Of a stretch of 64,000 nucleotides of DNA, positions 57,438-58,793 are shown in pieces; position 1 is the first letter of the stretch; each line of letters starts with the position of its first letter. Below the pieces are notes generated by a model that saw nothing but the letters and a program-made list of their open reading frames with translations, was not told the DNA's origin and made no database searches. A program made the position numbers and the translations under genes. Origin of the DNA: Undibacterium umbellatum (GTDB taxonomy: Bacteria > Pseudomonadota > Gammaproteobacteria > Burkholderiales > Burkholderiaceae_D); assembly GCF_014284125.1 (NCBI RefSeq), contig NZ_JACOFX010000006.1, forward strand, positions 186,001-250,000, written 5' to 3'.

Positions 57438-57529
57438 TTTTATGGCAATATCAGCCTGACTGATAATCTAGTTGCCTCAACTATTTCCCTTTGCGTGCAA
57501 TATTCTTTGTGCCTGTGCGTCTACAGGGT

Positions 57530-58102
57530 ATGGAGACTACACATAACCCCCACGAGCTGATGACTGATCAGGACCATCACATCACCGAAACGGTCAGGCG
57601 CGAGCGCGGGCGGCTGGGGAGTTTCATACGTAAGCGTGTGGCTGACGCCAGCGAAGCAGAAGATATCTTGCAGGATGTATTGTATGAACTGGTAGAAGCT
57701 TATCGTTTGCCAGAGCCGATAGAGCAGGTTGGTGCGTGGCTGTTCAGGGTGGCGCGCAACCGCATCATAGACCGCTTCCGCAAAAAGAAAGAAGTGGCCC
57801 TGCCTGAGGGAGAAGAGGGTAGTGATGATGAAGCCTGGCTGGATAAAGTATTGCCGTCCAGTGATGAAGGCCCGGAAGCAGCGTACGCACGCAATGTCAT
57901 GCTGGAAGAATTGTACGAGGCCCTGGATGAATTGCCGGAAGAGCAGCGCGATGCCTTCATAGGCCATGAAATCGAAGGCCTGAGTTTTAAAGAAATGTCT
58001 GCCGCTACCGGGCTGGGCATCAACACCTTGCTGGCGCGCAAACGCTATGCGGTCTTGCACTTGCGAACCCGCCTGCAAGACTTACTGGAAGAATTTAATT
58101 GA
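57530..58102 (+). CDS. RNA polymerase sigma factor (ECF type)
   Basis: A 190-residue sigma factor with region 2 (FIRKRVADASEAEDILQDVLYELVEAYRLPEPIEQVGAWLFRVARNRIIDRFRKKKE), an acidic linker (PEGEEGSDDEAWLD) and region 4 (LYEALDELPEEQRDAFIGHEIEGLSFKEMSAATGLGINTLLARKRYAVLHLRTRL). ATG 57530 is chosen; 57491 and 57560 are alternatives. The stop touches the next reading frame, and a His-rich membrane protein gene follows at 58115. There is no recognisable zinc-finger anti-sigma factor, so that membrane protein is the candidate regulator. Confidence 0.9.
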   Translation: METTHNPHELMTDQDHHITETVRRERGRLGSFIRKRVADASEAEDILQDVLYELVEAYRLPEPIEQVGAWLFRVARNRIIDRFRKKKEVALPEGEEGSDDEAWLDKVLPSSDEGPEAAYARNVMLEELYEALDELPEEQRDAFIGHEIEGLSFKEMSAATGLGINTLLARKRYAVLHLRTRLQDLLEEFN

Positions 58103-58114
58103 ATGGAGCCTGAT

Positions 58115-58495
58115 ATGTTGATGAAATTCAGAGTATTAAAAATAATGGTATTGGCCGTTGCCGGTATCAGTGCCTTGAGCTGGGTAGTCATGATGCTGTG
58201 GAACTGGCTCATGCCTGCTTTGTTTGTGGGTGTCCGCAGTATCGATTTTTTGCAGGCACTTGGGCTGCTGGTGCTGAGTAAAATCCTGTTCGGTGGGATG
58301 CGTGGACATGGCGGCTGGCACAAACATCATGACCACCATTGCCATCATCGTCGCTGGGAAAAGCTGACACCCGAAGAGCGCGAAAAATTCAAGCATGGCT
58401 TGTTTGGCCGCAGAAAGCACAGGGATGGAGCGCATGGCCATGTTCAAGACAATAAATACAGTAACAAGCATGACAGCAATCAGGAGCAAGTCTGA
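58115..58495 (+). CDS. His-rich two-helix membrane protein beside the sigma factor
   Basis: A 126-residue protein with two hydrophobic segments (VLKIMVLAVAGISALSWVVMMLW and FLQALGLLVLSKILFGG). Then comes a very His-rich stretch HGGWHKHHDHHCHHRRW (near residues 64-80), LTPEEREKFKHGLFGRR, and a polar tail. ATG 58115 has GGAG 6 bases upstream. Position right behind a sigma gene suggests a membrane partner that may sense metal, but no anti-sigma domain is recognised. Confidence 0.78.
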   Translation: MLMKFRVLKIMVLAVAGISALSWVVMMLWNWLMPALFVGVRSIDFLQALGLLVLSKILFGGMRGHGGWHKHHDHHCHHRRWEKLTPEEREKFKHGLFGRRKHRDGAHGHVQDNKYSNKHDSNQEQV

Positions 58496-58496
58496 G

Positions 58497-58793
58497 ATGC
58501 AATCGGCAAAAGAAGCCGCCTGCAAACAAGATGCAGGCGTGATCGTCCCTTTCGTCAACTTCAGCAAGTGTGAAGGCAAGGCCGATTGTGTGCCAGTTTG
58601 CCCGGAAAATGTGTTTGAAGTTCGTCGTATTGACGACAAGGATTACAAACAACTGAGCTGGCTGGCACAGATCAAACTACGGGTGCATGGCATGCAGGTT
58701 GCCTATACACCGAGGGCAGACGCCTGCCAGGCTTGTGGCTTGTGTGTGTCAGCCTGTCCGGAAAAAGCCATCACCTTGCGGCGTTCAGAATGA
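58497..58793 (+). CDS. Two-cluster ferredoxin with a Lys in the first Cys motif
   Basis: A 98-residue ferredoxin. The first motif reads SKCEGKADCVPVCPENVFEV: compared with CxxCxxCxxxCP, Lys takes the second Cys position, so a [3Fe-4S] cluster is likely there. The second motif DACQACGLCVSACPEKAI is a complete [4Fe-4S] site. The linker (LSWLAQIKLRVHGMQVAYTPR) is conserved in this ferredoxin family. ATG 58497 follows the previous stop by 1 base with GGAG upstream, so it is the third gene of the sigma operon. Redox partner unknown. Confidence 0.87.
   Translation: MQSAKEAACKQDAGVIVPFVNFSKCEGKADCVPVCPENVFEVRRIDDKDYKQLSWLAQIKLRVHGMQVAYTPRADACQACGLCVSACPEKAITLRRSE

Follow-up and report, generated by a model that had tools for sequence, protein, structure and literature searches.

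A predicted ECF sigma factor circuit with a candidate two-helix anti-sigma factor and a 7Fe-8S-type ferredoxin in Undibacterium umbellatum and its relatives

The described systems closest to the regulatory pair reported here include those of the CnrYXH type, in which an ECF sigma factor is served by a periplasmic Metal_resist sensor, and those of the type to which both SigF-NrsF and EcfF-OsrA belong. In Bradyrhizobium, the ECF16 sigma factor EcfF is paired with OsrA, a protein that, according to PMC3420878, has a DUF1109 domain, six helices and two conserved cysteines. The EcfF-OsrA system resembles the Undibacterium umbellatum locus in combining an ECF sigma factor, a multi-helix membrane anti-sigma factor outside the usual classes, an autoregulated operon and a small redox-stress regulon, the last three of which are predictions in the present case. 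However, unlike OsrA as presented in PMC3420878, the Undibacterium membrane protein has no DUF1109 match, two helices rather than six and no conserved cysteine, so that the circuit, which by analogy would work like EcfF-OsrA, is not a member of that group. In the literature searched, which was judged largely from listings and included PMC8999054, PMC8928951, PMC4440368, PMC6037834, PMC8103513 and PMC3420878, we recognized no published description of this sigma-membrane pair.

The window, a 64,000-nucleotide stretch of contig NZ_JACOFX010000006.1 (positions 186,001 to 250,000) in a genome of 6.46 Mb and 103 contigs, contains a three-gene operon on the forward strand, in which sigma factor, membrane protein and ferredoxin lie exactly where the initial annotation had placed them. 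The first gene (57530 to 58102, from the ATG to the end of the stop codon) encodes a protein of 190 amino acids that matches Sigma70_r2 (48.7 bits; cut-off 24), Sigma70_r4_2 (37.8 bits; cut-off 25.7) and no other Pfam model above its cut-off, and that scores 74.9 bits against the 42.9 needed for the NCBIfam sigma70-ECF model; having sigma2 and sigma4 domains alone, and no visible extension, it belongs to the ECF (group IV) sigma factors. Almost abutting it is the gene for a membrane protein of 126 amino acids (58115 to 58495, forward), whose start is most probably the ATG at 58115, which has GGAG just 5' of it and is where close relatives begin, an upstream ATG at 58103 being possible as well. 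A single base separates its stop codon from the ATG of the ferredoxin gene (58497 to 58793, forward; 98 amino acids). The operon is flanked by genes for a PAS histidine kinase (5') and a GNAT acetyltransferase (3'; both by Pfam); these neighbors recur in several close Undibacterium, one of which (L005) has no acetyltransferase, and are not counted as parts of the operon.

The pairing of sigma factor and membrane protein extends far beyond this genus. An alignment of the membrane protein, run against 84,980 species, found at least 294 relatives among at least 592 candidate stretches, of which the best 80 were retained; these 80 span Burkholderiales, Gallionella-type and Rhodocyclales Betaproteobacteria, one Xanthomonas, Acidobacteriota, Bacteroidota and SAR324. 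Among these best 80 of at least 294 loci, blastp places the sigma factor just upstream and on the same strand in 79. The exception, a Paraburkholderia locus (L085:3847-4234), has a truncated sigma gene (residues 11-59 matching) and open frames for membrane protein and ferredoxin. Because the pair has been retained across phyla, its arrangement is not a product of chance. A sample drawn independently of the sequence patterns used in that scan gives the same linkage: among 398 Pseudomonadota genomes, the sigma group, delimited by a threshold of our choosing (E 1e-28 or better), occurs in 12 and the membrane protein in 13, and the same 12 genomes hold both, adjacent to one another. Conserved linkage, on which the initial annotation had made its reading depend, is thus borne out by both samples. 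In the thirteenth genome (G530), a diverged hairpin protein sits beside a different ECF sigma factor (31% identical). Gene order varies, in that the membrane gene comes first in six of the 12 genomes, all of one family (f58), and likewise at a Pantoea plasmid locus (L147). The membrane protein was found in 13 Pantoea plasmid copies, all annotated 'hypothetical'; we found no plasmid relatives of the diverged hairpin protein, and one membrane-first pair, used as a DNA query against E. coli genomes, returned no match.

A common sequence motif heads the operon. In the window, a -35-like element, CAATATT (57498 to 57504, forward), and a -10-like element, CGTCTACA (57518 to 57525, forward), which ends 4 nt before the sigma ATG, form the only exact match in the genome to CAATATT-N13-CGTCTWC; the motif shared upstream of the relatives reads roughly ACAATATTC-N10-TGAwwCGTCTTCA. 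A relaxed form (AATAT-N14-CGTy) lies near the sigma start in 74 of the 78 usable sigma-first loci, a count that leaves out one cut locus (L028) and the one with the broken sigma gene (L085), where 0.095 would be expected by chance from single-base shuffles of the same 74 windows, and all of these loci together hold only 79 such matches in 1.18 Mb of both strands. The four misses resemble variants: two with an altered -35 element (L012 and L065), one with an extra base (L071) and one that has diverged (L068). In seven of seven membrane-first loci, the motif likewise precedes the membrane gene, at a distance of 17-43 nt. Its position at the head of the operon, whichever gene comes first, is a strong argument for regarding it as the operon's promoter and as a sequence read by the sigma factor; as judged from sequence alone, these 74 and seven loci have the autoregulated operon with -35 and -10 motifs expected of ECF (group IV) sigma factors. 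In 59 of the 74 loci, 2-7 nt separate the end of the pattern from the expected start codon, and ordinary spacing from -10 to +1 would put the mRNA start at about the ATG; given this proximity, the sigma mRNA may be leaderless.

The membrane protein itself matches no Pfam model above cut-off. None of 49 members of the family carries a known anti-sigma domain (such as zf-HC2, RseA-type or FecR-type; Pfam, E 0.01), which sets them apart from the class I and ZAS anti-sigma factors, and the same 49 gave no match to DUF1109, which, together with the presence of two hydrophobic stretches, places the protein outside the NrsF/OsrA kind. The ECF sigma factor thus stands without a canonical anti-sigma partner, as initially described, and no canonical factor was seen that would take over that role for the sigma group. 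Over 81 aligned rows, L28, W29, N30, P34 and L54 are invariant, G50, L52, I57-G60 and M84-F92 (except position 91) are mostly so, and no cysteine is conserved; the two stretches form a hairpin with the consensus VVMxLWNWLMPxLF...ALGLLxLSxILFGG. Behind the hairpin lies a tail box, LTPEEREKF (58364 to 58390, forward; family consensus MTPEEREKF), the proposed sigma-binding helix, which is near-invariant in the 81 rows, a conservation that is partly ascertained, as the scan for relatives itself used the patterns VVMxLWNW and TPE[EQ]RE[KQ]F. AF2 predicts helices at residues 2-38, 45-60, 73-83 and 86-102, the last one at the box, in a weak model of modest confidence (pLDDT 70.7, pTM 0.31). The net charges of the N-terminus (+3.2), the inter-helix loop (-0.07) and the segment after the second helix (+4.0) fit a topology with both termini inside.

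Between the hairpin and the tail box, the window protein carries a run of histidines, HKHHDHHCHH (58319 to 58348, forward), which the initial annotation had listed among the features of a suggested metal- or redox-sensing unit. On the metal-sensing reading, the His-rich tail would bind metal and control the sigma factor in a CnrYXH-like manner, with the ferredoxin taking part in a metal or iron-sulfur response. The tail box does show a weak resemblance to Metal_resist, the window protein's sole metal-family match, which stays below the cut-off there (14.3 of the required 29.2 bits) and recurs in one of 49 members (E 0.0014). However, the histidine run is lineage-specific: residues 61-83 hold 0-4 histidines in 75 of 81 aligned rows, six in two and eight in four, the window included. 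Since only a few close relatives possess the run, metal sensing through it is left unsupported, and we rejected it. The tail is, moreover, predicted to be cytoplasmic, there is no periplasmic sensor domain of the CnrX kind, and the neighbors and motif-bearing targets are oxidoreductases, an exporter and a hydrolase, with no metal transporter noticed among those examined. We therefore regard a metal-sensing unit as distinctly unlikely, and the likeness to CnrYXH-type systems goes no further than metal-type membrane signaling to an ECF sigma factor and a weakly similar LTPEE box.

Some hairpins occur apart from this sigma group. Three relatives consist of the hairpin only (L008:1411-1677, L009:1489-1704 and L208:1432-1752), with no tail and no sigma factor within about 1.5 kb, and at one further locus (L205:946-1902, which coincides with L162) a diverged hairpin with an EWW-containing tail directly precedes a different ECF sigma factor (31% identical). 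Such sigma-less hairpins, and the position of the membrane gene within the sigma factor's own operon, are what one would expect if the membrane protein were a positive partner or an effector under sigma control, for example a membrane-stress or transport protein, and sigma activity were set by transcription alone. But that explanation sits poorly with a co-occurrence that is strict and an adjacency that holds in either gene order, the three sigma-less hairpins lack the tail, and the diverged hairpin with another tail adjoins another ECF sigma factor; taken together, we consider it unlikely. Instead, linkage, co-occurrence, the promoter in both gene orders and the motifs before targets make it probable that the membrane protein acts as an anti-sigma factor, one that lacks any known domain of this kind, and this lends support to its initial designation as an unusual anti-sigma candidate. 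As the sigma-less hairpins have no tail, and as the tail differs where the neighboring sigma factor differs, we infer from these few cases that the hairpin senses and the tail binds the sigma factor; the hairpin may serve several ECF groups.

The ferredoxin matches 4Fe-4S dicluster models in Pfam (Fer4_7, 40.3 bits against a cut-off of 27); its AF2 model is poor (pLDDT 61.6). The first cluster motif, CEGKADCVPVCP (58569 to 58604, forward), has the form C25-x2-K28-x2-C31-x3-C35P, and the second, CQACGLCVSACP (58725 to 58760, forward), is of the regular [4Fe-4S] type (C77x2Cx2Cx3CP). The lysine at the second cysteine position, pointed out in the initial annotation, is real: C25, E26, G27, K28, C31, C35 and P36 are identical in all 45 aligned rows, which include a few near-duplicates. 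The resulting spacing, CX5CX3CPX40CX2CX2CX3CP, falls within the general 7Fe-8S pattern CX3-10CX3CPX17-40CX2CX2CX3CP and is identical to that of 7Fe-8S subtype 2 in Table 2 of PMC8928951, with which the earlier guess of a [3Fe-4S] cluster fits. Unlike subtype 2 as described there, the present candidate 7Fe-8S ferredoxin is encoded behind a sigma-membrane pair.

It is not, however, an obligatory part of the set: of the three genes initially proposed as a unit, the ferredoxin does belong to the operon in the window, but of the 77 judged loci (three others being too short) 35 have it in third position, all of these from Burkholderiales apart from one Xanthomonas, and the other 42 keep sigma factor and membrane protein without it. 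Five of the loci without ferredoxin are from Burkholderiales (L040, L047, L048, L083 and L089). Related ferredoxins also occur away from the sigma factor in other Proteobacteria, some of them next to genes of the SDR or NAD(P)H-binding kind. This distribution bears on the idea that the ferredoxin is the sensor, its labile [3Fe-4S]/[4Fe-4S] cluster relaying the redox state to the membrane protein and hence to the sigma factor. The single base between the two genes would suit such a relay, as would a 204-aa frame that joins membrane protein and ferredoxin in one MAG, but with a majority of pairs lacking the ferredoxin, and relatives of it lacking a nearby sigma factor, a sensory role appears very unlikely; the ferredoxin is an accessory output of the circuit. 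The joined frame is seen in L004:1510-2124 and L010:4001-4615, which are apparently one identical contig of 32,978 bases, so that the fusion may be real or an assembly error; if it is real, the C-terminus of the membrane protein is cytoplasmic.

The predicted regulon is very small. In addition to its one exact motif site, the genome contains two one-mismatch sites (L091 and L092), which we treated as chance, and sites with up to two mismatches are not enriched (53 matches, as opposed to 82 for the reversed control), which gives no indication of a larger regulon. The first of these (L091:1501-1527, with the gene at 1840-2970, contig C37) falls within a divergent TetR gene, some 310 bp ahead of a gene for an MBL-fold protein, a 52% relative of which adjoins the sigma gene at the Pantoea locus L147; the site is retained in three other Undibacterium, though its location within the TetR gene makes this conservation weakly informative. 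Among 300 Burkholderiales genomes the exact motif occurs in three: this one, one in which it precedes the operon (G060) and one in which it has no clear target (G164). A slightly relaxed pattern, applied to the 40 sigma-bearing genomes given by 41 loci, recovered 35 sites in 31 of them, compared with one in the reversed control, and 31 of the 35 are at the operon; nine genomes have no site under this pattern, some having variants.

The four extra sites include two in Herbaspirillum CF444, of which one precedes a gene for an NAD(P)H-binding protein and the other lies 44 nt from the ATG of an MFS exporter that is 72-83% identical to the MFS proteins encoded behind the ferredoxin at four other loci (L007, L079, L087 and L154). 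A third (L145:1553-1620; G350:C64) is an additional promoter copy followed by sigma-like first codons and then an MBL-fold hydrolase, possibly a case of promoter capture. The fourth (L146, in G339), like the match in G164, has no clear target and was taken as chance. In four Undibacterium (G004, G026, G031 and G034), an MFS relative (56-57% identical) is encoded behind a Tet(X)-like FAD monooxygenase, and CAATATTTGCAwTTTCAAAACGTCTATC, with two mismatches, precedes this pair in all four Undibacterium that carry it, the site in G026 having been sought after the other three had been seen. The monooxygenase was found in four of 60 relatives, and those four all have the operon according to a membrane-protein search (Fisher p 7e-5, with the window's genome included and kinship ignored). 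The motif thus stands before the extra exporter targets, the CF444 MFS gene and the monooxygenase-MFS pair, with one to two mismatches. The best NCBIfam relatives of these predicted targets are Tet(X) monooxygenase (219.7 of 750 bits) and MxcK/Bcr-type MFS exporters (268.4 of 525 bits), in both cases well under the curated cut-off. In Herbaspirillum GW103 and U. terreum the MFS genes had only three-mismatch sites and were not counted as support, and no motif was found before an MFS relative in G154 (35% identity). Since the window's own genome has neither the monooxygenase nor the MFS exporter at the cut-offs used, the operon itself is the only predicted target in this species.

Downstream of the operon, a frame of at least 100 aa on the same strand begins within 300 nt at 60 of 80 loci, some of these frames probably not being genes. 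Eight of the 60, chosen by eye, were annotated (SDR twice, NAD(P)H-binding protein, zinc-type dehydrogenase, MsrA, rhodanese, MFS and methyltransferase), and because they are so few and so chosen, the redox theme among them is suggestive only. A methyltransferase-like gene follows the operon at L019:4683-5399 and at 13 further loci, forming a cluster of 14 Burkholderia/Paraburkholderia-type loci (Pfam was run on L019 only).

Cumulatively, these results make it reasonably probable that the locus is an autoregulated circuit of ECF sigma factor and membrane anti-sigma factor with a very small detoxification regulon. In the resting state, the two-helix membrane protein would tether the sigma factor at the inner membrane through the MTPEEREKF helix of its cytoplasmic tail, and would let it go when the conserved hairpin reads a signal located at or in the membrane. 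The freed sigma factor would then read CAATATT-N13-CGTCT and switch on its own operon and, in relatives, also the MFS exporter and the Tet(X)-like flavin monooxygenase, with the 7Fe-8S-type ferredoxin serving as a co-transcribed electron-transfer effector for a presumed partner. The stimulus is likely to be a toxicant of the redox-active aromatic or quinone-like kind, and not a metal, as suggested by the family resemblance of a few targets.

More tentatively, the locus could represent a class of minimal anti-sigma factors, in which a hairpin would sense a membrane-active, redox-active toxicant, short cytoplasmic tails would be matched to different ECF sigma factors (MTPEEREKF here, EWW-containing in L162/L205), the sigma factor would drive one or two detoxification operons besides its own mRNA, which may be leaderless, and a 7Fe-8S ferredoxin would be an output in many Burkholderiales. 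Regulators without a recognizable anti-sigma domain remain 'hypothetical' in annotations, and the combination of linkage and a highly conserved promoter yields a candidate for the inhibitor as well as a regulon open to testing, for a circuit that occurs in Burkholderiales, a Pantoea-like enteric group and Acidobacteriota. Its promoter, whose sites number close to one per genome, would also make an attractive orthogonal switch.
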